Shown here piece after piece: positions 2,952 to 58,664 of a stretch of 64,000 nucleotides of DNA; the first letter of the stretch is position 1; every line of letters starts with the position of its first letter. This DNA is from Heliocidaris erythrogramma (Eukaryota > Echinodermata > Echinoidea > Camarodonta > Echinometridae). The notes below the pieces were generated by a model, which did no database searches, was not told the origin of the DNA, and saw nothing but the letters and a program-made list of their open reading frames with translations. A program made the translations under genes and the position numbers. The stretch spans positions 53,931,597 through 53,995,596 of the forward strand of contig CM046862.1 in the NCBI GenBank assembly GCA_025617745.1, in the 5' to 3' direction.

Positions 2952-3296
2952 CCAAAAAAGTACTGAAGTTTTCCCGAGCGCTTGGGAATAACAAAAGTCG
3001 GAGAAAAGGAAAAAGACAGCCTGTGAGGTGACCGAGTTCCTATAACACCTCCGGGGAGCGGGGCGGACAGATCTATGAAGAATCCGTCTCGTCCGTCAAA
3101 GAGAACAAAAGCGTCCGCGGAGATGGCCTCCCAAGCGGGGAGAAAGGAACGAAGACAGCCACCAACCAATACTCTGCGACGGTATAAGACCGAGGCAGCT
3201 GCAGTGGAAAACTAAGACCACTGCAAACCAAACATGACGCTCAAAAAGAAGCACCGCTTCAATGCATCCAAAATCCAGCTAGAAATCCTCCGCGAG

Positions 3297-4900
3297 AGAA
3301 AAACGCTCGGAGGAATCCCGCTGCCTGAACCCAAGCAAAGTCAAACCCTGCGCGCGGGTTGACTAAAAGTCAGGGAAAGTTTAGAACAGAGCAATCACTT
3401 CTACCCACAAAGGGAAAGCAACTAAGGCTCTGCCTGCCCCAGCGATTCGGAGACCGAAGCTTGAGAGGCTGCTTCCAAAACTGGATTCGCCTGAAATGAT
3501 CGTGACAAAGAATCACGAACAAAGGCCGAAACGGTCGGATTCACGCATGAACCGCCGTAAGCCTCCTCACCCGACGGAGCCCCGAGGCTGCGAGACTAGG
3601 AGGCTCATGTGATCTCATCACAGACAAAGAAGAATAAACCATAAAAGGCTAATTAGTCTCGATGTCCGACCCAAAAAAGGGACAAGAGCAGGGGATGCAA
3701 ATCCTGGCACAAGGGACCAACCCTGAGTCAGGGCAAAGGCCATCTCACACTGAACATCTCAGCTTGAGAGACCGGAGGGTTAGCTAAACCCGATGGGCAA
3801 GAGGCCAGCAAAACCTTGCCTCTTTTAGCCCCTTCCCTAGGCTTCTGATTGGCCCAAAAAGAGCCGAAGTCGAAACCCGCTTTTCAGAGCGTTTATTCGG
3901 TTTCGTTCGGATCCCCGAAGCCCTTCGGGAACACGAACCGAACCCTCCACTGAGGGACGCTCACCTCCCTTTATGGGAGAAGTGCGCTGAGGGTATTGAA
4001 CCCAAAGACGCGCACCAATTACCCATATCGGCCGAGCAAGGAGATGCAACAGCCATGGGCCGGACGCCAAGGCGCCCAGAGCAAGGGCGGACCGGGATGA
4101 CCCGGCAAAGGAACGCCAACAAAGGACTCAGCAGGAATCCCGCTGCTTAAACCAACGCGAAGTCGAACCCTGCGCGCGGGTTGACTAAAATTCAGAGAGA
4201 TATCTGGATAACAAAGCAATCGCTTCCACCCCGCAGAGGGCGAGCGATTGAGACTCCGCCTGCCCAAGCGATTCAAAAACGAAGCTTGAGAGGCCAGCTC
4301 CAAATCTGATTCCACCCGAGTGGAAAGAGACAAAGGAACGCTAACAAAGGCCTCAGCAGGCAGAGCCCCGCATGGTTCAACGAAAGTCTCCTCGCCCAGC
4401 GGCGCCCCAAGGGCCGCGGGAATAGGAGGCACATGCGAAACCGACTCAGACAAAGACGAATCAAACACAAAAGGCTGATTAGTCTCAAAGTCAGACCCCT
4501 GAAAAGGGACAGAAGTCAGGGTTGAAGTAGCCGGTACAAAGGCCCAACCCTGATTCTGAGCAAAAGCCCGCATCATGCTGAACATGTCAGCTTGAGAGGA
4601 GCTAGCTAGTTAGCCAGGCCAGACGGGCAAGAGGCCGGCAAAGCCTTGCCACTTATTGCCTTCTTCTTGGCCTTTTTCTTGGCTGGCTCGACAAGAGTCG
4701 TAGCCGAAACCATTTTGTTAGAACGCTTAATCGGATTCATTCGGATCTCCGAAGCCACTTCGGAAACACGAACCGATCCCTCCGCGGAGGGACGTTCACT
4801 TCCCAAAAAGGGATTGGAGCGCTCATGGCGTAAGCCTAGAGAATCGTCCAAATCACCCATATTGGCTAAGCAAGAAGATGCAGTAGCCATGGGTTGGGAG
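3297..4900 (-). repeat. Internal ~0.82-kb tandem duplication in the DIRS gag-like region
   Basis: The segment around 3300-4070 is repeated, diverged, at about 4130-4900. The shared block CGCGCGGGTT lies at 3351 and 4173 (offset 822). Matching pairs of segments encoding EGSVRV-like sequence lie near 3950 and 4787 (offset ~835). The frames contain acidic, Ser/Pro-rich sequence and a basic KKKAKKKA stretch (4660-4690). No gag domain is recognisable by motif. Confidence 0.65.
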
Positions 4901-5720
4901 CTAAAAGCTCCCAGTGCGTGGGCAGACCGAGATGACTCGGTATGTGCCCGATGACTACTAAAGGCGTGTCAACCCGCTATTGGACCGCTCGAAAGCAGCA
5001 ATAGGGGAGCACTAGTAGTCACGCACTCAGGTGAAAACACCTGTTGCTCCGAAGAGCGTCCATAATTGTTAGCTCGAGCATTCCCATCAGCTGGCAACTG
5101 AGACAGCCCAGAAAGTACTCGTTCCCCCATATGGCGTTTGCCGGGGGCTAGGGTTTTAGAACCCAGACCAACATGGACTAAGCCCGTGGGTTGCCCTGCA
5201 GTAGTGGGGCGCGTCTCCCCTAACGGATCAGAGCGAGTGAACGCTACCGTACGGGAAACAGCCCCCCCCCCCCCCCCCCCCCCCACCCCCCCCCCCCCCC
5301 CCTCTGGTCTCAGCGACCGGGGGATTGGATTCGTTAGATATCCAAACCACTAGAATCTGACGCCACCCACCCCGAAACCACGGGCTTCGGAGTTGACAAT
5401 CCCGATTCAGTTAACGCCACCCGTCCCGAAGCCGCAAGCTCCGAGACTGGCAAACTCTGCAAGGAAACACCACTAGGCAACTTACCCTTAGCCCTCCTCC
5501 CTCCCCCATGTACCGAAGTACTCGGGAGAGTTCTGGAAGGCCGAGTCGTCTTGCTAGACGACTCTTCGGAAGAAGCAGGTCTCCGTGACCTAGCTGCTTC
5601 TTCTTCCGAATTCAAACCACTGCAATAAAACAGACAATAAAGCATACATTTCGAAATAAGAAATACTTCAACTGAATGCAGTAAAATAAGAGTAAAATTT
5701 ATTTGGGAGATACGCACAAA

Positions 5721-6440
5721 AGATTTTCACAGCCAAAAAACCGTAAGAACAAACACCGAACCCAAAGGCTCGGTGACAAACGGAAACACCCGCAAACACA
5801 GAAATATCTACGTGGGGCTGACCGTGAAAGGGAAAAATAAATGCCAAGAAAAGGATATCAAAAATCCCTTGCAATCGGCAAAAGTGACTACTAAAACACA
5901 CAGTACTATAATCTAAGCGAATATAGGTACCTAAAAGTGCTTTAAATGTGCGAAAAAGCGCACCTAAAAGATACTATACGACCTGATTTCAGGAGCGCTG
6001 TGACTATACGTCCTATCTCGTCGGGGGCGAGCAAGAAAGAGGAAGATGGCCGTAGCGTGTTGACGCGCGTGAGTGGCGAAGGGGACAATAGGATTACGGG
6101 GGGTGCGCACAATATTGTGACTCATGTGTGTTAAATTCTCGAAGGGGTCCCGTAGTCAAGACTACAGGCATAATAGGTAGGTATATATGATTTATTGCAG
6201 TAAATTATAAAGGTAAGAAAAAGGCATCTTTCTGTAATTTGCTTTTTAAAAATTTTTTATTGCAAGGAGTCCCAACGTATTTCAACGTATCGCACAATTC
6301 GTGCAGTGCGTCACAACATCAATATCTATAAAGAAATAAATCACAGTGTTTATGGTTTATGGTTGCCCGTAAAGGAACGTATAATTTTTAAAATCCTTCT
6401 TTTGGTCTATTACATTATTAACGGAACAGCCCCTTAATAT
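5721..6440. other. No recognisable feature
   Basis: The stretch holds a few short chance frames. It could include the 5' terminal repeat or promoter of the DIRS-like element, but no repeat partner lies in the window to show this. Confidence 0.4.
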
Positions 6441-28022: not shown

Positions 28023-28829
28023 CCCTGATAGCAGAAAGTGTTAAAAATGACGTGATATTTACGTCGTGGTTTTCGTCCTTTTTACGTCCTGCAATTACGT
28101 CAATAAGACGACAACTTGCACCAACGCAAGACGTCAAGACGTCAAGAGGACGTCTTATTTTGACGTCATCTATACACTGTAAAAACTGAAGTGCTGTATA
28201 TAGCACTTTTTGAGGGCATGCATAGGGACTGCACTCAGAGTGATATTGAATGCACACAGCGTGCTATTTCAGCACTTTCACTGGAGCTGGACCGGCTCCT
28301 TAAACTGCTAAACATTCATTAAAAAATGATATTGGCGAGCCTCGAACCAGGGTCCGCTGATCGAGAATTGCTGGCATTAACGCTAGACTAACTCACATCG
28401 TACGATTTAGAGCAAATCATATTGTTACATAGTGAATTTACGACACCACATAGTTCATGTTATCTACTTGACTCCCATGACTAAACTGGATTGCAAGAAG
28501 CATTCGTTAGTCCATCGGTAACGTCAGCGCCTCTCAATCAGCGGAACCTGGTTCGAGGCTCGCCACGGTCACATTTTTTTTTGCCGGTAAATTAGCACAC
28601 TACAAGAGCTAAAAACAGCATTTCAGGTGCATGCAGTCATTATACATGCCCCTAAAAGTAGCACTTTAGTTTTTACAGTGTACAAGACGTAGAGATGACG
28701 TCAAAATAAGACGTCCTCATGACGTCTTGCGTTGGTGTAAGTTGTCGTCTTATTGACGTAATTACAGGACGTAAAAAAGACGTAAATGACGTAAATATCA
28801 CGTCATTTTTCCTCTTTCTGCTATCAGGG
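28023..28829. mobile_element. 807-bp relative of the 12.8-kb element: CCCTGATAGCAG ends, ACGTC-rich arms
   Basis: The ends CCCTGATAGCAG and CTGCTATCAGGG are flanked by AA on both sides. About 130 bp of ACGTC-rich arm on each side (TTACGTCCTGCAATTACGTC...) are inverted copies of each other and match the left-array unit of the element at 45037-57801. A further nested element (28174-28681) occupies the middle. No coding capacity. Confidence 0.85.
28174..28681. mobile_element. ~508-bp nested element with ACACTGTAAAAACT ends
   Basis: The ends ACACTGTAAAAACT and AGTTTTTACAGTGT are perfect inverted repeats. Two inverted tRNA-like segments with GGTTCGAGGCTCG (one on each strand, near 28340 and 28550) lie inside. 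Superfamily not assigned. Confidence 0.7.
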
Positions 28830-37229: not shown

Positions 37230-38810
37230 TTTTATAGAGTGCTGCCATCAGTTAGGGTTTGATATTTCCATGATGTCAAGATGGAAGATAAAACCCGCGC
37301 TAAGCATGCCCGTATTATTGCGTCGCTGAAGCAGGACCGATTCGGTAGCGCTATTAAGGACACCGCTGTACATGTTTGGAAAATTTCGGAAACTGTAGAA
37401 TTTGTGCTTGCGCACGGGTTCAATTTTGGCATACCCAAACCTCACATTAGCCGTGAAGAGGTGTTTATGGAATTTAAACTCCTCTATTCACAGCTAATGC
37501 GGCACAATCCTACTTGCAAGGATGACACAGCTTCAGCCAAGGCGCGTTTGGCTGATCTCGCGCACTCGTATTGTGGCATACCTAACGACATGTCCGATTT
37601 CCATATGACGCGCGAATGTATGACGGCTGTGCATGGTCTTAGGTCTAACAAAGACATTCACATTTATAAACCCGACAAAGGCACCGGTGTTGTTCTTTTG
37701 AATAAGCGTGATTATGTTGGTAAGATGATGGATGTTCTTGATGATGATTCCAAATTTCGGTGCATTGGTCCTGCATGTAATCACGATCGGTCCAGTTGCC
37801 TGGAGGGTAGGTTGCAGCGGTACCTGCTAGATTTGCGTAAGAATGATCAGCTAGCACATAATATTTATGATAGGATCCGCCCGCATGTCTCTCAGCGCCC
37901 CCGTATGTATGGCTTACCCAGTGGCGGATCTAGCCTGGTAAGACACAATACATTATACGGGCCCGCCATTGTGCACAAACAAAGCGGGCCGATAGAATGT
38001 ATTGTGTCTAATCCGGCTAGATCCGCCACTGGACTTACCGAAGACACATGAAGCCAATACTCCGCTCCGCCCTATTCTTTCCATGACTGGTTCAGCGCAG
38101 CATGAACTGGCTAGGTTGTTGAGGGAGCTCCTGCAACCTGTGCTTGAGCGATACTCAACCTATGCAATTAAGGACTCTTTTACATTTGCTCGGTCGGTTC
38201 GTCAGATGGTAATTAGTGAATCTGTCTCTTTATGTTTGTTTGATGTCTGTAGTTTGTTCACCAACGTGCCACTAAAGGAGACCATTGATATCTGTGTCTC
38301 CGCCCTCCATCATGGTGAGTTGGATGAACCTCCTATCTCCGAATCCGTGTTTGTTGAACTAATGAAACATGCTACAAGTGCTGTCGAGTTTAGCTTTAAT
38401 GATATCATGTATTCGCAGATCTATGGTGTTGCTATGGGTTCCCCGTTGGGCACCGTGCTTGCTAATATCTTTGTTGGCTTTCATGAAGCCCCCTTCATGA
38501 AAACATCACTGATCTTAGCCTTACCCCGCTCGCATACTTTCGTTACGTTGATGATACCTTTGCTATGTTTGATTCAAGCGCTGCGTGCAAGGACTTTACA
38601 CAACTCAACTCGCTTTATCCACCGCTTCGGTTTACATGTGAGATGGAGCAGTCTAACGCGCTTCCATTTTTGGATGTTCTGGTAGAGAAGAGTGGCGGCA
38701 AACTTCTCACGTCCGTATATCGTAAACCTACGTTTACGGGCCAGTACACTTGATTGGATTCGTACAGTGCTACATCGTATAAAACTGGTTTGATTAAAGA
38801 TCAGCTCCGA
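37230..38810 (+). pseudogene. Penelope-like reverse transcriptase, interrupted and 3'-truncated
   Basis: The first frame (37281-37918) includes DIHIYKPDKGTGVVLLNKRD and RPRMYGLP. After a 113-bp MITE it resumes with KTHEANTPLRPILSMTG, then CLFDVCSLFTNVPLKETIDI, then GVAMGSPLGTVLANIF. A frameshift at about 38500 then gives AYFRYVDDTFAMFD and NALPFLDVLVEK...VYRKPTFTG. KxDKGxxxVxL, SLFTNVP, GxxMGSPL and YVDD, in this order, are the RT blocks of Penelope-like elements. It stops near 38810, before the endonuclease. The catalytic Asp pair is intact, but the gene is dead from frameshift, MITE and truncation. Confidence 0.9.
37919..38031. mobile_element. 113-bp hAT-like MITE in the RT frame
   Basis: CAGTGGCGGATCTAGCC at the left pairs with GGCTAGATCCGCCACTG at the right, and pairing continues to a short central loop. 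The flanks GGCTTACC (37911-37918) and GACTTACC (38032-38039) form an 8-bp duplication with one mismatch. An 8-bp duplication and CAGTGGCGGAT-type ends fit hAT. Removing it restores YGLP|KTH of the RT. Confidence 0.85.
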
Positions 38811-39139
38811 ACAAAGCAATATCTATTTTATTTGAAAGCAAATGATACTTGTATACCAAAAATGTAACATTTTTAGCAAGAAAATATTTTCCGGCGGAGA
38901 TATAAGCAAAAATCTAAGTTTACGGCGAAAACTTTTTTGATGACTATCGGTCAACTCTGTAAAAAAACGTGACGTCATCGTATGAACATACGCTAACAGC
39001 TCGCTCACGTGTTATGTACATGTACGTACACATCGTGCTGCAGTTCTACGCTGATAACAGACACGAAGCATTGTTGGGGTTAAATTCAGACGACAGTTTT
39101 GCCCATTCTCCGTATTTTTTTTTTCGTTTTTTCACAATA

Positions 39140-39629
39140 ATGTCGAAGAGAGCAGTTGGAAGGCGTTGCATGGTAGGGAAATGCAGCAATGTGGCAGGAA
39201 GAGGAGAGTTTGGCCGGGAGTTTAGCATTTTCCAGGCACCACAAGCTACCCGGAAACTATGGGTCAAGTTTTTGTTACGAACACGTACATTTGACGATGA
39301 GGCCATGCAAAATGTACACATTTGTAGTGGACATTTCTTGAAGTCGGACTTCGTTCAGTCTCAGATCGTTCCATTCACATTAGGACACCGGAAAGCTGCA
39401 CCACAGTTGGAGTCTGGGGCAGTCCCGTCCATTAAGACAGCTGTGCCTTTTAGTGTTTTGCTTGGCTTTGAGAAGACCAGAGACCAATTTTGCAAGTCGC
39501 CAATCAAAATTGAGACGTTGAATCTGCCACAACGTCGACCTGCCATTGCGTACGACTACGAGAATACATCATGTACGTCAGTCTCTACAAGTTGCACAAC
39601 TGCAACATGTAGTTTTTTTTTTCCGTTGA
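39140..39629 (+). CDS. THAP zinc-finger protein, first exon
   Basis: The chosen ATG gives MSKRAVGRRCMVGKCSNVAG, then FSIFQAPQATRKLWVKFLLR, then NVHICSGHFLKSDF and SGAVPSI. C-x4-C, the W after about 25 residues, C-x2-H followed by F, and a terminal AVPSI box are the THAP C2CH zinc-finger layout, a sequence-specific DNA-binding domain of about 90 residues. A longer frame starts at 38969, but the 39140 Met sits just before the finger as usual. A donor (TTGA|GTAAGT) follows residue 163. THAP domains occur both in host regulators and in P-element/Kolobok-type transposases, and no further exon was found to decide. A PLE fragment adjoins it upstream. Confidence 0.75.
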
Positions 39630-39839
39630 GTAAGTCTTGTTTTCACATTTATGTAATCTTCGCCTACTTTATAAAAATGTTATTATGTTTTATTTTGCTA
39701 CTTTAGTACATTCTTATTACTTGTCGTACGTGTACGACGGTCTTGTAGCCGTACTAATGTGTTTTCTTAGTGTATTTTTTAATCAGTTATTTAGGTATAA
39801 GGACCCCATTGGAAATAAGCCAATTCGGCTTTCATGGGC

Positions 39840-39915: not shown

Positions 39916-41942
39916 CATTTATCTACCATTTCTTGTATGCCATCTTTCATCAAAAAACACGGAGAATGGTGAAATATATCCTCATATCTGCAATCACTTC
40001 AGGAAAATCCAGCAGATGTTTCATTAGACGATAGAATAACATTTGAGTCCATTTGAGTCCAAGAAACCAAATATGTTATTAAACTATGTAGAATAACTTC
40101 CTCTTTCCGTTAATGGATGTCAATGCATGGGCTATAAAGCTAGTCCCGTTGCAGGCTGTTTCGCGTAGTATAAACGTCCTCGAAAATTGTTATTATGTCT
40201 AATTGCATCCATGGTGTCACACAGAATTATAATCTGTAAAGTATGTCAAAAAATAATTACATTCGCCATTTGGATATCGATTACTAAAGAAATCGTTTTG
40301 CAATATGAGAACTTATTCTGGAATATGAAAATATAGCTACTTCTCTACCAGGCAGTGGAAACCCCCATCCGCTTTGCTTAAGTAGTCACAAAGAAATAGG
40401 GAATTGTGTGAAGCGTGTCATGCGTCCCTTTCTTCCATTTTTGTCTCTTGGGTGTCCTTGGCATTCACATTTTTACTAACTATAATTATGCAAACCATTC
40501 TAACAAAGGTTGTTCCTGATCACGTTAATAATGTCTTCCTAAAAAGATCAAAACAACTCATTCATTAAACAGGCGCATGATTTTGTTGAATTATTTATAT
40601 CAAGTTACAAAATTAATGGTCAACATCTTTACCATTGCTCAGCTTTTCACATTGATGAAAAATTAAGTTTTAGAAAAGAATATTCAGATGCCTTTCATCT
40701 TCAACAACAAAAACAACAGCGAGAACGATGATAATTATGATGCTAAACTCAGCATTGCCATAACAATAATAGCAGATAAAAACAAAACAGATATAAGTGT
40801 GCCATTGTTTATTGTGCGTTGTGAGTCCCCCTTTTGTCAAAACTTGGATGAAAGGAACTTATCACATATATACATACAAGATAAAGTTCGGGTTCTGGTC
40901 ATAATAGTGTGAAATAAACTTTCTCAAAGCAATTGGGAAATGTTAATTATATAGGATATCTCTTGTGCTGAATACTATTGTGTTTTGCTCTGATTTTTTA
41001 TTTATATAAGCCGAACTTAATGTATATTTTTGCTGTCAGATTTGTTTGCAAATGTCTTTTTTTACTGTCAAGTAGAAAAGAGAATATTGTTAAACTTGCA
41101 ATGTATAGTACACATATCACTTAGGAACTCTGAATTTGTGCTTCCAAAGCGTGTATGTCCTACCTTCCTGAATAATGGTGTGAATGCACTTGTAGGAGAG
41201 TCCATTTAGTTTTGTAGGGGGGGGGGGGGGGGAGTGGTGTGCAACACATTTGAATTCATTTCTATTTTCTATACATCACTCATTCTTCTTAATAGTGATA
41301 TTTTATTACGATTGAATGAAATCCAGCTTTGCTTCCTACTTTATCTTTCTTTTAATGAAATGTGACAATAACCATTAAAAATGTAGACTTAATAACTTAA
41401 TAACTTAGTATTTAATAATTAACTTTCAAAGAGTATTTTCTCGAGCAAACTGTTCAAAGTTATATTGCATAATAATAAACATTATACTGATGGCACAGGT
41501 TTCTGTATGAGGAAACATTTTCAAGCCATTCTGAGCCTAAACAAAATGTTCAACACTCAAAATTTTGGGCGGGATTTGCCGCCCACGGCATGGTAGGGGT
41601 TAAAATTAATAACTTTATGGAGACCAATCACCCAAAAATATCTTTCTCTGAATGCTTTGGTTTCTGTCCCAGTGTAATTTTTAAAATAGCAGCTTTTAAT
41701 ATTACTTCTGTAGAGAAAAAGGCAAGTTCCAATACACTTTAAATGCAAGCGAAAGCAAATATGAATCGACTCCCATATGTGCATGCACACACTCGTTCAA
41801 TACATCTTACTGTAGTCCTGTACACAGGTTTTCATGTTATTATTTCCTTTATACTCTTAACATATGTCGGGTAAAGGTTTTTCGTGTTGATTTTACTCGC
41901 TTTTACACATATATTTTTGGGTGACTGGTACCTCTGAAAAAG
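39916..41942. repeat. Copy A of a ~2-kb duplicated sequence (uninterrupted)
   Basis: It matches copy B (43891-45036 plus 57802-59603) almost base for base, aside from small indels: B has about 130 bp extra at 44160-44290 and about 40 bp extra at 44572-44613, and lacks about 125 bp present in A near 41020-41145. A contains the uninterrupted insertion sites for three elements found in B. No protein is recognisable; the open frames are short and shared only because the DNA is duplicated. Confidence 0.9.
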
Positions 41943-43890: not shown

Positions 43891-45036
43891 CATTTATCTA
43901 CCATTTCTTGTATGCCATCTTTCATCAAAAAACACGGAGAATGGTGAAATATATCCTCATATCTGCAATCACTTCAGGAAAATCCAGCAGATGTTTCATT
44001 AGACGATAGAATAACATTTGAGTCCATCTTCAAGAAACCAAATATGTTATTAAACTATGTAGAATAACTTCCTCTTTCCGTTAATGGATGTCAATGCATG
44101 GGTTATAAAGCTAGTCCCGTTGCAGGCTGTTTCGCGTAGTATAAACGTCCTCGAAAATTGTGCAAAGAAAAAAAGTTCGTCTATCTAATTTCGTTAAATA
44201 ATGAGGAGTTGTTTTTAGTTTGTATATCTGTCTCTTACTGATAGATCTGTGGCTTTATTACTTTCCCGTTGTTTGTTTTATTTTGTTTTATTATGTCTAA
44301 TTGCATCCATGGTGTCACACAGAATTATAATCTGTAAAGTATGTCAAAAAATAATTACATTCGCCATTTGGATATCGATTACTAAAGAAATCGTTTTGCA
44401 ATATGAGAACTTATTCTGGAATATGAAAATATATAGCTACTTCTCTACCAGGCAGTGGAAACCCCCATCCGCTTTGCTTAAGTAGTCACAAAGAAATAGG
44501 GAATTGTGTGAAGCGTGTCATGCGTCCCTTTCTTCCATTTTTGTCTCTTGGGTGTCCTTGGCATTCACATGAATGAAAATATTTTATTCAGAATATACAG
44601 ATTTCCTCACATATTTTTTTACTAACTATAATTATGCAAACCATTCTAACAAAGGTTGTTCCTGATCACGTTAATAATGTCTTCCTAAAAAGATCAAAAC
44701 AACTCATTCATTAAACAGGCGCATGATTTTGTTGAATTATTTATATCAAGTTACAAAATTAAATTAATGGTCAACATCTTTACCATTGCTCAGCTTTTCA
44801 CATTGATGAAAAATTAAGTTTTAGAAAAGAATATTCAGATGCCTTTCATCTTCAACAACAAAAACAACAGCGAGAACGATGATAATTATGATGCTAAACT
44901 CAGCATTGCCATAACAATAATAGCAGATAAAAACAAAACAGATATAAGTGTGCCATTGTTTATTGTGCGTTGTGAGTCCCCCTTTTGTCAAAACTTGGAT
45001 GAAAAGAACTTATCACATATATACATATAAGATAAA
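43891..45036. repeat. Copy B, left part
   Basis: Left portion of the copy interrupted by the 12.8-kb element. It ends ...CATATAAGATAAA, where copy A continues GTTCGGGTTCTGG. Confidence 0.9.
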
Positions 45037-45049
45037 CCCTGATAGCAGA

Positions 45050-47295
45050 GAGTGGTAAAAATGACGTGATATTGACGTGATATTTACGTCGTGGTTTACG
45101 TCTTTTTTACGTCCTGTAATTACGTCAATAAGACGACAACTTGCACCAACGCAAGACATCATGAGGACGTCTTATTTTGACGTCATCTTTACGTCTTCCA
45201 GGTCAGTGAATGACAACTTCATGACGTCTTGCAAATCACCAAATGATGACTTTTTGACGTCTTTTGGACGTCTTGCTGGTGACTAAATGACCACTTTATG
45301 ACGTCTTTTAGAGGTCTTGCGGGTGGTAAAAAATGACGTGATATTTACGTCGTGATTTACGTCTTTTTTACGTCCTGTAATTACGTCAATAAGACGACAA
45401 CTTGCACCAACGCAAGACATCGTGAGGACGTCTTATTTTGACGTCATCTTTACGTTTTGCAGGTCACTGAATGACGACTTCATGACGTCTTTTGGACGTC
45501 TTGCAAATCACCAAATGACGACTTTTTGACGTTTATTGGACGTCTTCCAGGTCACTAAATGACCATTTTATGACGTCTTTTAGAGGTCTTGCGGGTGGTA
45601 AAAACTGACGTGATATTTAAGTCATAGTTTACGTCTATTTTACGTCCTGTAATTACGTCAATAAGACGAAAACTTGCACCAACGCAAGACATCATGAGGA
45701 CGTCTTATTTTGACGTCATCTTTACGTCTTGCAGGTCACTGAATGACGACTTCATGACGTCTTTTGGGCGTCTTGCAAATCACCAAATGACGACTTTGTG
45801 ACGTCTATTGGACGTCTTGCTGGTCACTAAATGACCACTTTATGACGTCTTTTAGAGGTCTTGCGGGTGGTAAAAAATGACGTGATATTTACGTCGTGAT
45901 TTACGTCTTTTTTACGTCCTGTAATTACGTCAATAAGACGACAACTTGCACCAACGCAAGACATCGTGAGGACGTCTTATTTTGACGTCATCTTTACGTT
46001 TTGCAGGTCACTGAATGACGACATCATGACGTCTTTTGGACGTCTTGCAAATCACCAAATGACGACTTTTTGACGTTTATTGGACGTCTTCCAGGTCACT
46101 AAATGACCATTTTATGACGTCTTTTAGAGGTCTTGCGGGTGGTAAAAAATGACGTGATATTTAAGTCATAGTTTACGTCTATTTTACGTCCTGTAATTAC
46201 GTCAATAAGACGACAACTTGCACCAACGCAAGACATCATGAGGACGTCTTATTTTGACGTCATCTTTACGTCTTGCAGGTCACTGAATGACGACTTCATG
46301 ACGTCTTTTGGGCGTCTTGCAAATCACCAAATGACGACTTTGTGACGTCTATTGGACGTCTTGCTGGTCACTAAATGACCACTTTATGACGTCTTTTAGA
46401 GGTCTTGCGGGTGGTAAAAAATGACGTGATATTTACGTCGTGATTTACGTCTTTTTACGTCCTGTAATTACGTCAATAAGACGACAACTTGCACCAACGC
46501 AAGACGTCATGAGGACGTCTTATTTTGACGTCATATTTACGTCTTGCAGGTCAGTGAATGACAACTTCATGACGTCTTGCAAATCACCAAATGACGACTT
46601 TTTGACGTCTTGCAGGTCACTAAATGACCACTTTATGACGTTTTTAGACGTCTTGCGGGTGATAAAAAATGACGTGGTATTTACGTCGTGGTTTACGTCT
46701 TTTTTACGTCCTGTAATTACGTCAATAAGACGACAACTTGCACCAACGCAAGACATCATGAGGACGTCTTATTTTGACGTCATCTTTACGTCTTGCTGGT
46801 CAGTGAATGACAGCTTCATGACGTCTTTTAGAGGTCTTGAGTGTGGTAACAAATGACGTGATATGCTAGACGCCCAAAAGACGTCAAAGAATCGTCATTT
46901 GGTGAACTGCAAGATGTCCAAAAGACGTAATAAAGTCGTCATTTAGTGACCTGCAAGACGTAAAGATGACCTCAGAATAAGACCTCCTCATGACGTCTTG
47001 CGTTGGTGCAAGTTGTCGACTTATTGACGTAATTACAAGACATAAAAAAGACGTAAATCACGACTTAAATATCACGTCATATTTTACCACCCGCAAGACG
47101 TCCAAAAGAGGTCCAAAAGTCGTCATTTGGTGATTTGCAAAGTCATCATTTAGTGACCTGCAAAACGTAAAGATGACCTCAAAATAAGACGTCCTCATGA
47201 CGTCTTGCGTTGTTGCAAGTTTTAGACTTATTGACATAATTACAGGACGTAAAAAAGACTTAAATCACGACTTAAATATTACGTCATATTTTACC
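45050..47295. repeat. Left ACGTC array: ~272-bp units, alternating types, with inverted units at the inner side
   Basis: Direct units begin at each GGTAAAAA(A)TGACGTGATAT, near 45053, 45329, 45598, 45870, 46142, 46414 and 46661. Neighbouring units alternate between two variants, giving a ~544-bp higher-order repeat. From about 46867 to 47295 units lie in the opposite orientation. Each unit has TTACGTCCTGTAATTACGTC and many TGACGT palindromic cores (CRE-like). Confidence 0.9.
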
Positions 47296-49520
47296 ATCTG
47301 AACCACTAATTACAATCTGTTTAAGTGTAATGACGACCTGTCAAAAGCATTCATGAGCACATGGATACCAAAATTCAAAGTACATACATGTACAATCACT
47401 GAAAAATAAGTTATGCATAATATACAAGGCAGACATAAAATCAGTTTCACATTTTTAATGCCACTGGTATGAAAATCAGCTGCAAACATCCATTCATAAA
47501 ACATACATAACAATGATAATCAAAACTGATGTGTGAGTAATTATATACAGGTATATGTTAACAGGTGGATTATTTAATCACACAGTGGGAAACACAAGCT
47601 ACCCTAATGAAAAGAGTTGTGAAAATGAATGGATTTTTGGCACGAAGTAAAAAAAGGGTAAGAAAATACATTAAGTATTTGAACATTTACCAAAAAAACA
47701 GCATCACTGACAAAATTGGAGGGGAAAGTACCTGATTTCTATGGTCTCAAAAATGGTAATGTTGAATGTAAATGAATTACTAACTCATGAAAAAGCTTGA
47801 GTATAAGATTTTGTTAAGAATGTTTTGCCTCATTTGCATAAAGTAGATACTCAAAATTATTTGCAAAGCATTTTTTTTTCAATTTGGGTTTGAATCTAGA
47901 TCTTGCACCAGAACAATGTTTTATACAAGAACAAGGAAAAATAAAGAAAGTTAATTATGGAACGAAATGCTAGGAATCTATGTAAGACAACAAACCAAAT
48001 GGTGGAACTGTAATCAGAATAAGTTGGTTCAAAATAATGCAAGTTGATTTACCCTTGAATTTCTTTGACAAATATATTTTTCACAAGGAAAAATGCCTGA
48101 ATGAAGCATATTAATTGTACGTAGCATTTCAGTCCAGTTCATAAGAAATAAATACGCACAACTTGGTGACTATGAAAAGTTCATTATTAACATAAACTTC
48201 ATAGTGGCTCTTTGAATAATTGATGTACATGTATAACTAATGAATTCTCTGTCCTGTGGATTGGCAGACGAATATAGTCTTAGGAATAATAAAATAAAAG
48301 ATTTTGAGTTATGAAAACTGCAACTCTCAATCATTGCAAGATATGGCATATTGACAAAATCTATCAAGCTCTTCTCCTAAAGAAAATGCGCTATTGGTAA
48401 AAATACCCTTTTACATCTACCAATATATTCTGCAAAAAGTATGAAAGTGCTGAAAATTGCATACACAGTTTCAATTCAGTTCAATTTTATTTTAGTTTCT
48501 AATATTTTATATCAAATAAAACTTTGTCATATGTTTAAAGGTTATCAGGAGTACTTGCAGTGTGATTTCAGTTTGACACTAACTTTACTTTTGAATTGCT
48601 TGTCAATTGCCATGTTTTAACTTCCAATTCTACAAATATTTAGGACATTTTAGGTGCTTTATTTTCATGGAATGTATTCATAAAATGCTATTAGGTTGGA
48701 TACAAATGGATGGGAACTCTCTTCATTTCTTCCATACATTACCAATACTCCAGATGACATTTAAATGTACATTTATGGACAGAACTAACTGCAGTTTAGT
48801 ATAAGTTTAAGTTTCATGTCATGCAATCATGAAACAAGTAAAACATTTACATTTTATGTGAATAAAACATTTAGCGCTCCTTATGGAGATAGAGGCACCG
48901 AAAATGTATATGAAATACATGCAAGCATCTGTGGAATTCTTAAGAGCATCCCAAAAAACAGATAGTTGTTTGAAATATAGAAGAAATCCACTCCAGAATT
49001 TATTCTTCTTATTTCATGAGAAAACATCATACAGAACAGTACAAATGTCACACAAATCTCATACAGGAAGATATGACATTTCAAAATTTCATTTTTATTT
49101 TCTTGACCAGTCCTTGCAAATATTTAAATGGGCGAGTAGATGTCATCACCTCATAATTTTTTTCAAATACACTGTATATGGATTTCTAAAAAAACTTTAA
49201 GCTCACACTCGTAACACATATCCCCATAGCAAAATGTATTATTTCTCCTTTATTTCGGGCGGTGATAAGACAAGTTTTAGATTCTCATAGCTGAAATATG
49301 AAACGGATAGCAAATTGTGAGGCAATGATATCATCACCTCGCTCATTAAAACACTAAGGACTGGTCAAAAAGTGTTTTTCCCTCAAAATATGAACTTTCA
49401 TAATGTCATAACTTCCTTATTTCTTATCTTTTAGCACTGTTTCATATTTAATTTGTTTCTGTATGTTTTAAACCTGTAGAGAGGATTCTTTCTTTAATTA
49501 TTGCCAGTTGTAGCTACAGC
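47296..49520. other. AT-rich sequence inside the 12.8-kb element, no gene seen
   Basis: No open frame with splice or family support. It lies 3' of the DUF4806 gene and may hold its 3' UTR. Confidence 0.5.
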
Positions 49521-49523
49521 TTT

Positions 49524-49720
49524 TTACAGATTATTTGAGTATTCCTCTGTGTCCATTGGCAAGGCTTCTTCTTCCTCCTGCAGTTCTGGAGTTACAGGCC
49601 TCCGAAGCTCCAGATCATTCTTTGGTATGCTTTGATAAATGTACTTCAAGTAGTATTGAATGCCACTTTCCACCTCGTCAAGCGGAGCAGATCTTGTCCG
49701 TTCGTTGCCCCTCACAGTCA
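49524..49720 (-). CDS. DUF4806 gene: terminal exon with stop
   Basis: With the preceding base it reads VTVRGNERTRSAPLDEVESG then IQYYLKYIYQSIPKND, an acidic tail EEEEALPMDTEEYSNNL and TAA at 49524-49526. 'V-R-x-N-x-x-T-x-x-A-x-x-x-E-V-E-x-x-I-Q-x-x-L' is the end of the DUF4806 domain. The acceptor is TTTCCAG, and the phase matches the exon at 50639-50800. Confidence 0.8.
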
Positions 49721-50013
49721 CTGGAAAAGAAATAGAATGTGAAAGGAAAATATAATTAAAAATTTAAATATTACCTCTCAGATCCGAAAGATACTGTATT
49801 GCTTCACTTCTTTTATTTCTCACATTTAGCAAATACCTGAAATACATGGCCTGAAAATAAACTGCAATGGCCTGAATTCAGGCTTTTGCCTGGAAACTGG
49901 CATCTTTGTACACATATACTGACCACTAAAATTGTTTTGTAGACCTTTCTCTTTTTTTTTCTTTTTGTACCACGGGAGATGGCGACTTCACTTCTAGGAA
50001 ACTTTGGCAGTAA

Positions 50014-50189
50014 CAGGCGCGGATCCATAGGGGGGCGCAAGGGGCGTGCGCCCCCCGCCCGTTTTGTCTGACAAAGTATGCCCCCGGACCCCTTAGATGG
50101 CCGTTTGGCTTCGTCAAACGGAGGGTTCCTCAGTGTGCGCCCCCTTTCTGAAATGCGCCCCCTTTCTGAAAATCCTGTATCCGCCCCTG
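50014..50189. mobile_element. 176-bp MITE in a DUF4806 intron, CAGG-GCGGAT ends
   Basis: The ends CAGGCGCGGATCCATAGG and (minus) CAGGGGCGGATACAGG are imperfect TIRs of hAT-MITE type. AGTAA borders both sides. It is richer in GC than its surroundings and creates a spurious minus-strand frame of 161 codons. Confidence 0.7.
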
Positions 50190-50638
50190 AGTAAAGCTGT
50201 TTTTCAATTAAAAACTGAATGCTAGAAGCATAACGAACTTCAAAAGGCACCAGTTCAAACACTGTAATGAAGCTAACAGCCCTTAGAGGTAAAAACATCT
50301 CTGAAGATCTTTATCTTAATTTCTGCCTAATGATGCAAACAGCAGTCCTTCTGGATTAGAGCATTATGGCAGTTAAGCAGAGGGAAGGCAGAAAGAGTTA
50401 AGCATACAAACATACCTATCTGACAATATTTTGAAACACTAAAAAAAAAAATATATATATATATATATATATCCAAGTTATATATATCCAAGTTACTTTG
50501 TGATAAATAATGTGGGGGTCCAAAAAATAATTTAAATGTAATCTTCTAGATGTCTGCAACTATCTGCTTATGATTCAAGAAGAAAAGATAATCAACAGAC
50601 TCTTCTGAAGATGAGAAAATGTATATACATTTAATTAC

Positions 50639-50800
50639 CAAAGATAACATCTATCATCGCCTTATATCCCGAAAACTTGTGCTTCTGCCACGTTGTCCCA
50701 TCCAACTGAATTGCACAGACAACTGAGGGTCCATCATTGTGTCCAGCACACGCCTTACTGATTCTTTGGTGGCCCCTCCACATCTCTTTAAGTATGACAT
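50639..50800 (-). CDS. DUF4806 gene: core-domain exon, homology in a shifted frame
   Basis: A 162-bp exon (TTCCAG acceptor, GTAATT donor). The frame required by neighbouring splice phases is open (VILKEMWRGHQRISKACAGH...). The next frame reads YLKRCGGATKESVRRVLDTM then LSVQFSWMGQRGRSTSF, which is the DUF4806 core ('L-x-x-x-GG-x-x-x-x-x-x-R-x-L ... F-x-W-x-G'). The domain returns to the splice-phase frame at MIDVIF, after an in-frame TGA at about 50660. One extra base upstream and one missing base here would reconcile the frames. Function of DUF4806 is unknown. Confidence 0.7.
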
Positions 50801-51415
50801 CTGGAAAAATGAAAGGGAATAGCAGTAAACATGTATTATTCTCACTTTCATGCATCTTCCTATCTGATTTAAACATGCATAAGATCTCACAATTGAAACC
50901 GATACTGATTTCAAAAGTTCTTTCAAACTTAATTATTCCAAGCAGAGGTCAATTTCATTATAGGCAGGCAAACTCTGGAAGACCTACAAGGTGGATGCAA
51001 AGCATTGTTTTTCCTCCTGCAAGCTCTGTAAACAACCTGAGGCTGAAATTGATAACTATATTGCAAAGAAAATGCATTTAGCAGCAGCTTTGCAAGCAAG
51101 ACAAAAACAAACTTTCTGGCTGTTTGAAGTCATGACATAGCTGCAGAACAATTTATTGACCTCTCCTGTATGTAATAATGGAAATCTCCAAAAATCTCCA
51201 AAAATAATTGTCAATTTCAATTCTGGAATGAACATGCATGTCACTAACAGTATATTTAATCCAACTTTCTACAATAAACAAATATGCTGTTGAAATTCTG
51301 ATAGTTAATTTTCCCAATTAAGCTGAATGTTTGCATTAATAATTGAGTATAAAGTGCAGAAGAAAGTTAATGAATCAACTGTATAACACTATTATAAGCA
51401 GATAAAGACACTCAC

Positions 51416-51631
51416 AAATTGCTTTTTTTGCAAGATCCTCCTGAAGGATCGTGTTGACCTCACATAAGTCTTGAACGTTATTAAGTGGAAGAGAGGGTAT
51501 TCCTTCTGGTATATCAGCAATTTCAGCCACTCTGCCCTTCTCCATTTTGGCACGGATTGCCCCAAGAAGTTTCCGGTTTTCCCTCACCTCCGACATGACT
51601 TCCTCCATCTTATTATGCAATCGTCTCAATT
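51416..51631 (-). CDS. DUF4806 gene: coiled-coil exon
   Basis: 216 bp, acceptor TTTCAG, donor GTGAGT. It reads LRRLHNKMEEVMSEVRENRK then GAIRAKMEKGRVAEI, a heptad-like helical stretch, then EGIPSLPLNNVQDLCEVNTI LQEDLAKKAI. Helical segments and the 'LPL-x-x-x-x-x-L' lead-in usually precede DUF4806. Seven A at about 51426-51432 (AAAAAAA) would be six if the following exon is to be read in the DUF4806 frame. Confidence 0.8.
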
Positions 51632-51935
51632 CTGAAATTAAATTGAAATATGAGAGCATTTATTTTTGTTTCTTTTTTGTATTTTTTCCTTATTCAATCG
51701 TAAATATTGTACATTCCAATCCAATCAGGGTATTTATATAGCACCAATATCTAGTTGCCTAATCAAAGGCCATGTTGAGACTGAAAAAAATACCAAAATG
51801 TCTCTTTTGATTTCTGCCTGACACCATACAATTTTAGGCAAATTATTTATTTCCCCTAATTTTTTACCTTCAATTTCATGACATTTTTAATTTAGAAACA
51901 CATTTGATGTGACATTTGGGAGTAAATTTCATGAC

Positions 51936-52100
51936 CTTTGAACTGGGCCATATTTGCCCACGATCTAATCAGCTCATCTCGTGTCATGCACTGCCGGTTT
52001 CCCTGAGCCAAATAGGAACAACATTCTTCCAAGGGTTCTCTTGATATTGTGTACATGGTGTAGGTGCGATTTTGTTCAGGCAGATGGATGGACCGACAAC
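51936..52100 (-). CDS. DUF4806 gene: upstream exon, unknown domain
   Basis: 165 bp in matching phases (two bases in, one out), acceptor TTTTTAG, weak donor AAAG|GTCATG. It reads CRSIHLPEQNRTYTMYTISR then EPLEECCSYLAQGNRQCMTR and ELIRSWANMAQFK. If the weak donor is not used, the frame ends at 51892-51894 (…HQMCF stop) and would form a short alternative protein. Met at TYTM is the first possible start if the next exon is non-coding. Confidence 0.6.
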
Positions 52101-52732
52101 CTAAAAACATAATGCACCTACAAGCCCTAACAGGAGTATAGGAATAAAAGACAATCATAGAATATGTTTGGTTTGTTTAGAAATTTCAAATTTTCACTCT
52201 TTTTTCTGAAATGTACGTATGAACAGATCGAGGTGCCATCATGAATGCCCCCCCCCCCCCCCCAAGAAAAGAATAAGTGACATAAACTAATAAATAATAA
52301 TCAAATGAATAAATTCATCAGAGACTTGCCTGATGGTGCCTTATATTTAAAAGCACTTCACTCTAACTCTAACAGTTTAATATTACAGTAACGTTAGTAA
52401 CAATATTATTGGACAAAAGACATAGCCTATAGGGTACACTGCCTAACAGTTAGTATTTAGTCTACTTATTTCGATGTTTACTTCAATGTAAGTAGACTTA
52501 ACTCTGGCAGTATTTAAATGATCACTAAATGATAATTTGTAATTGTATATATAATTTAATGTCCCAATGAAAGTGACAAAATACAGCACTCAGCAGATGC
52601 ATAATTTCGATTGTAATGTATAATAACGGTCACTTGACAAATGTGATTGATAGTATACTGACAGTTCTACAAACAGTGTGACTAATAATAACACACGTTG
52701 TCTCACTATGAACATGGCAAACAAAGAAGCGG

Positions 52733-52935
52733 ACAAAATATACAGCTCCTCATTGTACCTTCCACACTTGCTCTGGTAGACAAAAGAATATCCCTTCATT
52801 GCTATTATGTAAGATTATGTAGAGCAGGTGTCACATGCATATTCACCTGTTCTACTTATCTTACATAATAGCAATGAATTGATGTTCTTTTGTCTACCAG
52901 AACAATTGTGGAGGGTACAATGAGGATCTGTATAT
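52733..52935. repeat. ~93-bp inverted repeat with short spacer, in a DUF4806 intron
   Basis: The left arm (about 52733-52828) and right arm (about 52842-52935) match inverted at about 85-90% (GGTAGACAAAAGAA; GCTATTATGTAAGAT; CCTCATTGTACC). The spacer is about 13 bases. A fold-back of this size is typical for a MITE; no target duplication was found. Confidence 0.75.
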
Positions 52936-53039
52936 TTTCTCCACTCTCTTTTGTCATTGCATGCATCGTGTTCCTAGTGTCTATCTGTTACTGTCTTAGC
53001 TACACATAATGCACAGTGTGGTGTGAATACCTAACTTAC

Positions 53040-53119
53040 TTGCCACGAAACCTGAACTTAAACTTTGATGGAAGGTCTTTAGAAGATCACCGAAGACGAG
53101 TTCGTATGCCTCATAATGC
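53040..53119 (-). CDS. DUF4806 gene: most upstream exon seen
   Basis: 80 bp, acceptor TTCTCAG, donor GTAAGT. It reads HYEAYELVFGDLLKTFHQSL SSGFVA and joins in phase to 51936-52100 (A|GT gives Ser). No in-frame ATG is present, so it is an internal exon or part of a 5' UTR that happens to be open. A CpG-richer stretch lies just upstream (53160-53230), as for a promoter. Confidence 0.5.
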
Positions 53120-53559
53120 CTGAGAAGTTAGAGTAACCTGTTCCACTGCTATTTTTTCACATGCACACACTCCACACTGAGTCGAGCAGCGCGGCAATGC
53201 ACGCACGTGAAACGACGGACGAGTAAAACGATCACGTTAAAAAACAAAAACAAAAAACAAAAAACAAACAAAACAAACAAAAAAAAACCATTATGTCAGC
53301 AAGATAATTGTATACATTGCGTACCGGCAAAAGGTACCGGCCGTGCATGCCTAGCCTGCCAGGCTAGCTAGCCGTGCATCAATATCACGCGCTAGTTGAG
53401 TGGCTCGATGACGTAGCCTGCAGTCAATATCATTTAATTGTATTAATTATCCTTTCTTCTTCTTTCCCTTATGTTTGCAATAGCAAAAAATTATTTAGCT
53501 TTTATATCCAAAGTCTAGCGAATGCATGTTCTGATATCCTTTTTTTTTAGGGCACATAT

Positions 53560-56500
53560 CGAACCATAAGTTGTATATTGACGTCAAAATCACGTCATGA
53601 ACTAGTCATTAAAAAAATATAGACATTGTCTAATTAATCCCAAACCGTTCCCATGTTTAGATTTAAACTGAATAATCGTTCATAAGTGGTAAATAATATT
53701 ACGTCATGAACTAGTCATTCGGAGCTGGTCGTCAGTTGGCAATGAAGTCACGTAATATTAGGTGGTTTTTTTTGGTCTTGAATAATTGTTCATATAAGTG
53801 GTAAATAATTGACGTCAAAATCACGTCATGAACTAGTCATTCTTAGCTGGTCGTGAGTTGGAATGGAAGTCACGTAATATTAACGTCGAATTTTGGTCTT
53901 GAATAATCGTTAAACAAGTGGTAAATACTTGACGTCAAAGTCAAGTCGTTAACTAGTCATTCGTAGCTGGTCGTGAGTTGGCATTGAAGTGACGTAATAA
54001 TTACGTCGTTTTTTGGTATTGAATTGTTCATATAAGTGGAAAATAACTGACGTCAAAATCACGTCATGAACTAGTCATCCGTAGCTGGTCGTGAGTTGGA
54101 ATTTAAGTCACGTAATATCAACGTCGATTTTTGGTCTTCAATAATCATTAAACAAGTGGTAGATACTTGACGTTAAAATCGCGTCGTGAACTAGCCATTC
54201 GTAGCTGGTCATGAAATAGTAATGGATAGTGCGTAATAATTACGTCGTCTTTTGGTCTTGAATAATGGTTCATAAGTGGTAAATAAGTGACGTCAAAATC
54301 ACGTCATGAACTAGTCATTCTTAGCTGGTCGTGAGTTGGAATGGAAGTCACGTAATATTAACGTCGAATTTTGGTCTTGAATAATCGTTAAACAAGTGGT
54401 AAATACTTGACGTCAAAGTCAAGTCGTTAACTAGTCATACGTAGCTGGTCGTGAGTTGGCATTGAAGTGACGTAATAATTACGTCGTTTTTTGGTATTGA
54501 ATTGTTCATATAAGTGGAAAATAACTGACGTCAAAAGCACGTCATGAACTAGTCATCCTTAGCTGGTCGTGAGTTGGAATTTAAGTCACGTAATATCAAC
54601 GTCGATTTTTGGTCTTCAATAATCATTAAACAAGTGGTAGATACTTGACGTTAAAATCGCGTCGTGAACTAGCCATTCGTAGCTGGTCGTGAGTTGGCAA
54701 TGAAGTGACGTAATAATTACGTCGTTTTTTGGCCTAGTTGTTCATATAAGTGGAAAATAACAGAGGTCAAAATCACGTCATGAACTAGTCATTCTTAGCT
54801 GGTCATGAGTTGGAATGGAAGTCACGTAATATTAACGTCGAATTTTGGTCTTGAATAATCGTTAAACAAGTGGTAAATACTTGACGTCAAAGTCAAGTCG
54901 TTAACTAGTCATACGTAGCTGGTCGTGAGTTGGCATTGAAGTGACGTAATAATTACGTCGATTTTTGGTCTTCAATAATCATTAAACAAGTGGTAGATAC
55001 TTGACGTTAAAATCGCGTCGTGAACTAGCCATTCGTAGCTGGTCGTGAGTTGGCAATGAAGTGACGTAATAATTACGTCGTTTTTTGGCCTAGTTGTTCA
55101 TATAAGTGGAAAATAACAGAGGTCAAAATCACGTCATGAACTAGTCATTCTTAGCTGGTCGTGAGTTGGAATGGAAGTCACGTAATATTAACGTCGAATT
55201 TTGGTCTTGAATAATCGTTAAACAAGTGGTAAATACTTGACGTTAAAATCGCGTCGTGAACTAGCCATTCGTAGCTGGTCGTGAGTTGGCAATGAAGTGA
55301 CGTAATAATTACGTCGTTTTTTGGCCTATTTGTTCATATAAGTGGAAAATAACTGACGTCAAAATCACGTCGTGAACTTGTTCATCGTAGCTGGTCGTGA
55401 GTTAGCAATGATGTGACGTAATAATTACGTCGTGTTTTTGGTCTTGAATTGTTCATATAAGTGGAAAATAACTAACGTCAAAATCACGTCGTGAAGTAGT
55501 CATTCGTAGCTGGTCGTGAAGTCACGTAATATTAACGTCGATTTTTGGTCTTGAATAATTGTTAAACAAGTGGTAAATACTTGACGTCAAAATCACGTCG
55601 TGAACTAGTCATTCGTAGCTTGTCGTGAGTTGGCAATGAAGAGACGTTATAATTACGTCGTTTTTAGGTCTTGAATTGTTCATATAAGTGGAAAACAACT
55701 GACGTCAAAATCACGTCATGTGAGTTGGAAATGAAGTCACGTAATAATTACGTCGTTTTTTGGTCTTGAATAATCGTTCATATAAGTGGCAAATAATTTA
55801 CGCTAAAATCACGTCATAAAATAGTAATGGATACTGCGATTCTTAACTGCTCGTGGGTTGGTAATGAAGTGACGTAATAACTACGTCGTTTTTTGGGTCT
55901 TGAATAATCGTTCAAATTAGTGGTAAATACTTGACGTCATAAATAACTTCAGGAACTAGTCATGGATAGTGCAATTCTTAACTGGTCGTGAGTTGGCAAT
56001 GACATGACGTGATAACTGCGTCGTTTTTTGGTTTTGAATAATCGTTCATAAGTGGTAAATAATTGACGTCAACATCACGTCAAGAATTAGTCATGGATGG
56101 TGAAATAACTGATCGTCAACTTGCAATGAAGTGACATAATAATTACGTCGTTTTTTGGTCTTGAATTGTTCATATAAGTAGAAAATAACTGACGTCATAA
56201 TCACGTCGTGAACTAGTCATTCGAAGCTGGTCGTGAGTTGGCAATGAAGTGACGTAATAATTACGTCGTTTTTTTGTCTTGAATTGTTCATATAAGTGGA
56301 AAATAACTGACGTCAAAATCACGTCATGAACTAGTCATTCTTAGCTGATCGTGAGTTGGAATTGAAGTCACATAATATTAACGTCTATTTTTGGTCTTGT
56401 ATAATCGTTAAATAAGTGGTAAATACTTGAGGTCAAAATTACGTCATGAACTAGGCATTCGTAGCTGGCCGTGAGTTGGAAATGAAGTGACGTAATAATT

Positions 56501-57700
56501 ACGTCGTTTTTTGGTCTTGAATAATCGTTCATATAAGTGGTAAATAAATGACGTCAAAACCAGGTCATGAAATAGTAATGGATAGTGCGTAATAATTACG
56601 TCGTCTTTTGGTCTTGAATAATCGTTCATAAGTGGTAAATAAGTGACGTCAAAATCACGTCATGAACTAGTCATTCTTAGCTGGTCGTGAGTTGGAATTG
56701 AAGTCACGTAATAATTACGTCGTTTTTTGGTATTGAATAATCGTTAAACAAGTGGTAAATACTTGACGTCAAAATCACGTCGTGAACTAGTCATTCGTAG
56801 CTGGTCGTGAGTTGGCAATGAAGTGACGTAATAATTACGTCGTTTTTGGTCTTGAATAGTTCATATAAGTGGAAAATAACTGACGTCAAAATCACGTCAT
56901 GAACTAGTCATTCTTAGCTGGTCGTGAGTTGGCAATGAAGTGACGTAATAATTACGTCGTCTTTTGGTCTTGAATAATCGTTCAAATAAGTGGTAAATAA
57001 TCGACGTCAAAATCACTTCATGAACTAGTCATGGATAGTGCAATTCTTAACTGGTCGTTAGTTGGCAATGACATGACGTGATAATTGCGTCGTTTTTTGG
57101 TTTTGAATAATCGTTCATAAGTGGTAAATAATTGGCGTCACCACCACGTCAAGAATTAGTCATGGATGGTGAAATAACTGATCGTCAGCTTGCAATGAAG
57201 TGACATAATAATTACGTCGTTTTTTGTCTTGAATTGTTCATATAAGTGGAAAATAACTGACGTCAAAATCACGTCATGAACTAGTCATTCGTAGCTGGCC
57301 GTGAGTTGGAAATGAAGTAACGTAATAATTATGTCTTTTTTTGTCTTGAATGATCGTTCATATAAGTGGTAAATAATTGACGTCAAAATCACGTCATGAA
57401 ATAGTAATGGATAGTGCGATTCTTAATTGGTCGTGAGTTGGCAATAAAGTGACGTAATAATTACGTCGTCTTTTGGTCTTGAATAATCCTTCATATAAGT
57501 GGTAAATACTTGACGTCAAAATCACGTCATTAACTAGTCATGATTGTAGCTGGTCGCGAGTGGTCAATGCAGTGACGTAATAATTACGTCGTTTTTTTGT
57601 CTTGAATAATCAATCATATAAGTGGTAAATAATTAACGTCAAAATCACGTCATAAACTAGTCATCCAAATAAGACAATACATACTCGTCTTAGAAAGTCG
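53560..57700. repeat. Right ACGTC array: ~118-bp units, about 35 copies
   Basis: The unit contains TGACGTCAAAATCACGTCAT, GAACTAGTCATTCGTAGCTG, GTCGTGAGTTGGCAATGAAG and TGACGTAATAATTACGTCG. Blocks of two to four units are themselves repeated (for example near 53815-54170 and 54285-54640), a sign of unequal exchange. It is not the same unit as the left array, but shares the ACGTC core. A distinct ~110-bp ACGTC-rich end piece (57690-57790) leads to the TIR. Confidence 0.9.
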
Positions 57701-58664
57701 TCACGAAGACGTCGTAATAACGTCATTCATACGACGTATGACCAGTTGACCAGAATACGACCAATATACGGCGTCTTTAAGACGTCCGTCTGCTATCAGG
57801 GAAGTTGAGTTCTGGTCATAATAGTGTGAAATAAACTTTCTCAAAGCAATTGGGAAATGTTAATTACATAGCATATCTCTTGTTCTGAATACTATTGTGC
57901 TTTGCTCTGATTTTTTATTTATATCAGCCGAACTTCCAAAGCGTGTATGTCCTACCTTCCTGAATAATGGTGTGAATGCACTTGTAGGAGAGTCCATTTA
58001 GTTTTGTAGGAGGGGGGGGGGGGGGGGTGAAGTGGTGTGCAACACATTTGAATTCATTTCTATTTTCTATACATCACTCATTCTTCTTAATAGTGATATT
58101 TTATTACGATTGAATGAAATCCAGCTTTGCTTCCTACTTTATCTTTCTTTTAATGAAATGTGACAATAACCATTAAAAAATGTAGACTTAATAACTTAAT
58201 AACTAATAATAATTACTTAATAATTAACTTTCAAAGAGTATTTTCTCGAGCAAACTGGGCAAAGTTATATTGCATAAGAATAAACATTATACTGATGGCA
58301 CAGGTTTCTGTATGAGGAAACATTTTCAAGCCATTCTGAGCCTAAACAAAATGTTCAACACTCAAAATTTTGGGCGGGATTTGTCGCCCACGGCATGGTA
58401 GGGGTTAATAACTTTATGGAGACCAATCACCCCAAAATATCTTTCTCTGAATGCTTTGGTTTCTGTCCCAGTGTAATTTTTAAAATAGCAGCTTTTAATA
58501 TTACTTCTGTAGAGAAAAAGGCAAGTTCCAATACACTTTAAACGAAGTGAAAGCAAATATGAATCAACTCCCATATGTGCATGCACACACTCGTTCAATA
58601 CGTCTTACTGTAGTCCTGTACACAGGTTTTCACGTTATTATTTCCTTTATACTCTTAACATATG

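Follow-up and report, generated by a model that had tools for sequence, protein, structure and literature searches.

A 12,765-bp insertion at positions 45037-57801 of the stretch analysed here, a 64-kb window of Heliocidaris erythrogramma contig CM046862.1, belongs to a real, recently mobile and multicopy family, and exons of a DUF4806 gene form part of the mobile unit. We consider, with moderate confidence, that this insertion (element W) and its relatives represent a large, probably non-autonomous family of cut-and-paste DNA transposons that works in the manner of CACTA/EnSpm elements. The superfamily of the W family is unproven; a new superfamily is not demonstrated, because no transposase was found inside the element and its anatomy lies near that of CACTA/EnSpm, and we do not file the family as a CACTA member because neither its end sequence nor the outcome of the transposase searches agrees with that assignment.

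The insertion is defined by a clean paralogous empty site. The window contains a tandem duplication (39.9-41.9 kb versus 43.9-58.7 kb), W lies inside its second part (copy B), and the duplicate about 4 kb upstream of the insertion (copy A) carries the empty site at 40881-40890 on the plus strand, which reads GATAAAGTTC. Copy A is 98.3% identical to the left flank of copy B over 421 bp ending at 45036 and 94.8% identical to its right flank over 135 bp starting at 57802. The left end of W is the 13-bp terminal inverted repeat CCCTGATAGCAGA (45037-45049, plus strand), and the right end (57789-57801, minus strand) is its exact complement. Across the window, exact matches to the 12-mer CCCTGATAGCAG occur at 28023 and 45037 on the plus strand, at 28818-28829 and 57790-57801 on the minus strand and nowhere else. 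Because a single AA is present in the empty site and AA stands at both sides of the insert (45035-45036 on the left and 57802-57803 on the right), W generated a 2-bp target-site duplication. A sequence-only reading of this DNA had proposed one inserted unit with perfect 13-bp inverted ends and AA on both sides; the ends and the empty site, together with the other full copies described below, bear it out. Scans with Rfam and for tRNAs gave no matches in the 64-kb window, the left end had no match in a scan of viral contigs, and the papers in which the 12-mer occurs appear to concern other subjects. Elsewhere in the window, long open frames at 1920-5726 (minus strand) are, judged by eye, presumably of a DIRS/Ngaro-type retroelement, and open frames at 37263-38685 (plus strand) resemble what we take, again by eye, to be a Penelope-type reverse transcriptase, followed at 38963-39706 by a frame that we likewise assume to be THAP-like.

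We searched the assembly (1.064 Gb in 26 contigs) with both ends and with the first DUF4806 exon; the copy numbers given here are first-look candidates, of which 40 per query were scored. The left-end query (first 300 bp) gave 490 candidates and the right-end query (last 137 bp) 221, and all 40 of the scored right ends matched at 98% or more. The exon query gave 142 candidates, and among the 40 scored, 32 matched all 224 bases at 100% (405 bits, the full score) and eight scored 400 bits; for at least 23 of these 40 places, one of the listed left or right ends lies no more than 14 kb away, correctly placed and oriented. Nine further copies, picked from the best left-end matches, were then read whole (17 kb each), making ten with W. 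Both ends joined to the interior of W were found in all nine, and thus the outcome named beforehand as fatal to the proposal, the lack of any other such copy, did not arise. The ten copies are 8.6-15.1 kb long, with most of the variation coming from the arrays, and the left end begins with CCCTG in nine and with TCCTG in one. Recent mobility is indicated by the interiors of W and of the copy C7, which are 99.9% identical.

In two of the copies, at C21:13977603 and C21:12255847, the left end carries the same damage, loss of the first C, and the DNA to its left is 99.8% identical between them for 1.5 kb or more; on the right, both flanks start with AC and then diverge. A larger unit may have moved together with the DNA on its left. 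In the copy C21b (C21:3154421), a 23-bp stretch of the outer left flank recurs inverted in the right flank, and this copy may lie inside another inverted-repeat element.

The inner structure of the element is asymmetric. The left subterminal array (45073-46839) consists of 272-bp units rich in ACGTC and is followed by an inverted stretch (46865-47296; 46412-47296 matches its own complement at 78.5%), and the right array (53701-57664) consists of units of about 120 bp that have GACGTCAAAA and GACGTAATTA in common with the left array. The earlier description of ACGTC arrays with a different unit length inside each end is therefore correct. Counting ACGTC and GACGT together, W has 138 occurrences in its left 2.25 kb and 129 in its right 4.23 kb, against one in the 6.26 kb between them. 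The 10-mer GACGTCAAAA occurs 9 times in the left array and 17 times in the right, and nowhere else in the window outside an 807-bp relative; several 10-mers are common to both arrays and, within the window, are confined to W and this relative. As a whole, the two arrays of W are weakly alike, the best matches being 32 bp at 84%. Arrays are present in all ten copies, at 1.2-2.3 kb on the left and 1.2-6.5 kb on the right. The middle part (47300-53556 in W) is 96.4-99.9% identical between pairs of the ten copies, gaps not counted; its length is 6.2-6.6 kb in eight of them, with single copies at 5.6 and 7.4 kb, and a small palindrome within it (52723-52951) was found in every copy. The observed/expected ratio of CpG is 1.57 in the left array, 1.83 in the right array and 0.46 in the middle.

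The DUF4806 sequence lies in the middle part on the minus strand, in three exon-like pieces whose splice sites were placed by eye: exon 1 (51416-51631), with a coiled-coil-like stretch and the start of the domain; exon 2 (50639-50800), with the rest of the domain; and a probable last exon (49524-49720). A G+C-rich, repeat-like stretch at about 50015-50186 lies between exons 2 and 3, and the few gaps there in the ten-copy alignment indicate that most copies have it. The peptide obtained by joining the three pieces by hand matched PF16064 with E=7.1e-7 and 29.9 bits (cut-off 25), and a protein database search with the joined piece returned no homologue at E 0.001 among 138 candidates. The proposal of a spliced DUF4806 gene in W stands as far as this domain match goes, but the domain frame changes inside exon 2, and an intact gene is not supported. 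With splicing placed by eye, exon 2 starts outside the domain frame and has rejoined the frame of exon 3 by its end. This two-frame picture recurs in nine of the ten copies (C3 was matched in the first frame only), so either the exon boundaries are off or the DUF4806 gene of the founder was already altered. Small indels are present at the end of exon 1 in some copies, and exon 3 has in-frame stops in five of the ten (C10, C21b, C3, C6a and C6b) and none in W.

Whether DUF4806 recurs in independent full-length copies was the check put forward with the original proposal. All ten copies have exons 1 and 2 and also exon 3, which is partial in one; the exons are thus part of the element, and a one-off captured gene is rejected. 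The pattern of variants among the ten copies bears on the state of this gene. Variants common to at least two copies fall at 1 of 392 sites in exons 1 and 2 (intervals that include 8 and 6 intron bases) versus 123 of 5,614 sites outside the three exons (p=0.005), a test that hangs on one shared variant and gives p=0.09 and 0.05 for the two exons taken singly. Single-copy variants number 11 in these exons and 235 outside, a reduction that is not significant (p=0.23). Exon 3 has no deficit of shared variants (5 of 197 sites) and is enriched in single-copy variants (19, p=0.001), and some non-exon stretches, for example 48.96-49.37 kb, are likewise free of shared variants. The deficit in exons 1 and 2, over few sites, is as would be expected if the source copies kept a working gene.

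The target-site duplication was then examined in 18 paired copies, namely the ten read, seven, 9.5-17.6 kb long, paired by the coordinates of their ends and compared by their flanks, and the one at C21:12255847. Identical 2-bp flanks were found in 14 of them (AT in five, TA in three, AA and AG in two each, GA and AC in one each); the composition of 30 right flanks implies a chance match of 0.17 per copy, at which 14 or more matches have P ~2e-8. The four copies with no matching duplication are C10, in which the right end is mutated, C21b, in which the ends are intact, and C21a and its partner at C21:12255847, in which the left end is without its first C. The AA-type target suggested for W did not hold up: with six different dinucleotides among the 14 duplications, an AA-specific target is rejected. 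The first base of the 30 right flanks is A in 22 and the first two are AA in seven, and the AA at W is a coincidence within this general leaning of the flanks towards A.

Searches for a transposase within the family gave negative results throughout. Pfam found none in the six frames of the middle of W, a scan that also missed DUF4806 and is weak for split genes, and none in 20 separate open frames. No open frame in the ten copies exceeds 176 aa, and tblastn with four CACTA-type frames of the host had no match in these copies. Transposase_21 has 14 matches in the host assembly, of which 13 pass the cut-off, and the longest open frame among them is 877 aa. We inspected four of these loci together with flanking sequence of 1.5 kb, one of the four over 10 kb as well, and saw no CCCTGATAGCAG ends or arrays there. 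At the locus C8:46487000-46496999, an open 877-aa frame of Transposase_21 type is accompanied 1.1-1.5 kb downstream by clustered GCAAGCTTGC palindromes, which resemble the subterminal repeats of a CACTA element; over its 10 kb this locus has no CCCTGATAGCAG end at two or fewer mismatches, no ACGTC array (at most 6 motifs per 500 bp) and no definable ends.

Comparison with known systems narrows the possible affiliations. Tc1/mariner and Mirage elements duplicate TA, and TA accounts for 3 of the 14 duplications found here. Helitrons and Helentrons have neither target-site duplications nor terminal inverted repeats, whereas the W family has 2-bp duplications and 13-bp inverted ends. ISL2EU elements, as characterized in the relevant passages of PMC4482050, resemble the W family in making a 2-bp duplication, but this is AT within AATT, and they encode a THAP-bearing transposase and a YqaJ protein; AT makes up 5 of our 14 duplications, and Pfam reported neither a THAP nor a YqaJ domain for W. 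The fungal Plavaka elements, which the relevant section of PMC12730594 places in the wider CACTA group, likewise have duplications of 2 bp or of 2-3 bp, but they differ in their ends (TGT..ACA or CATCA..TGATG) and in encoding a transposase of their own.

The CACTA/EnSpm group offers the closest anatomy. The soybean CACTA element Tgmt* is described in PMC2613891, in the part available to us, as a 20.5-kb element that has 13-bp ends, duplicates 3 bp and carries asymmetric subterminal repeats, and the same source states that the TNPA protein of En/Spm recognises the subterminal repeats and that TNPA and TNPD are both required. The W family is like these elements, so far as those passages describe them, in its 13-bp ends, its asymmetric arrays of a subterminal motif and its large size. 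Short-motif arrays at both ends belong to the definition of the group, and W has them (138 motifs on the left and 129 on the right versus one in the middle). In the excerpted descriptions, the ends of the group begin with CAC (CACTA in plants, CAC..GTG in fungi), whereas those of the W family are CCC..GGG, and plant elements duplicate 3 bp, whereas the W family duplicates 2 bp, which falls within the 2- or 3-bp duplication of any sequence expected of the group. The W family further departs from the elements so described in its long-unit arrays, which reach 6.5 kb, in its DUF4806 exons and in the lack of any transposase found. A DDE transposase of Transposase_21 type is a further mark of the group; none was found in the W family, and a non-autonomous member would lack one.

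These differences lend some weight to another explanation, that the family is an undescribed transposon superfamily with its own transposase, of a kind that Pfam does not know, and that its likeness to CACTA is convergence. In its favour, CCC..GGG ends and 2-bp duplications stand together with ACGTC arrays and DUF4806 exons in an element in which Pfam, frame lengths and tblastn all failed to reveal a known transposase; moreover, the literature passages that name both DUF4806 and transposons or transposases describe no element of this kind where they deal with DUF4806. However, 13-bp ends and subterminal arrays occur jointly in CACTA elements (passages of PMC2613891), duplications of 2 bp are known in the wider CACTA-like group, where they range from 2 to 5 bp and the ends are mostly CA..TG (relevant section of PMC12730594), and the missing transposase is most simply a matter of non-autonomy. 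We therefore regard a separate superfamily as unlikely. A more specific form of this idea, to which we give equally little credence, is that what we see here is one part of a superfamily, probably of animals and not yet described, whose kilobase-long ACGTC arrays are bound by a BEN-type DUF4806 protein acting as a transposition factor, with a cutting enzyme that is either encoded elsewhere or goes unrecognised.

The 807-bp relative at 28023-28829 bears on a further explanation. The sequence-only reading had given it the same ends as W, the same flanking AA and the unit of the left array, all of which it has, but each of its ends is a left end, the two stand inverted to each other, their arms being 88-100% complementary, and a further small element with ends CACTGTAAAAACT and TA at both sides lies inside it (28173-28682, TA included). 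Without the inner element, what remains of the relative is a palindrome, some 300 bp long, and no shortened full copy. Such a palindrome of left arms would suit a foldback-type element, in which the tandem arrays are expanded inverted repeats and the middle is passenger DNA, as would the inverted part of the left array and the variable array lengths. According to its abstract, the foldback element Tetris of Drosophila virilis carries 220-bp tandem repeats within its terminal repeats (PMC4079207); it further resembles the W family in being apparently non-autonomous and in having a small relative with only the ends in common, whereas the abstract makes no mention of a DUF4806 gene. Long inverted ends made of tandem subrepeats are the defining foldback feature, and the 807-bp relative does consist of inverted left arms, but the two arrays of W differ in unit length and are weakly alike (best 32 bp at 84%), and one and the same middle in ten copies is no random passenger. 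A foldback origin is accordingly more doubtful still. Although W lies within a tandem duplication of the window and one other pair of copies has 1.5 kb of left flank in common, an assembly join or a segmental duplication in place of transposition is highly improbable, since copies that share these sharp ends and carry 2-bp duplications lie on many contigs and the flanks of the ten read copies (98 bp left, 600 bp right) have no match between copies, and an assembly join is rejected by the independent copies with the same ends and interior.

Our data are thus best accommodated by a CACTA/EnSpm-like mode of transposition, for which we suggest the following model. A DDE transposase provided in trans would cut at the CCCTGATAGCAG ends, and the ACGTC-rich subterminal arrays would serve as the binding region that brings the two ends together. 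By analogy with TNPA in En/Spm, a small DUF4806 (BEN-type) protein made by source copies may bind the arrays, which makes the DUF4806 protein a candidate array-binding factor. Palindromes of two left ends, such as the 807-bp relative, may move as small derivatives of the same system.

The family is a concrete example of a transposon through which DUF4806 sequence has become multicopy in a genome. Outside plants, it also provides a parallel, open to testing, to the system of TNPA and subterminal repeats in CACTA elements. In addition, the satellite-like arrays inside its mobile ends, whose lengths differ several-fold between copies, may be a source of dispersed satellite DNA.
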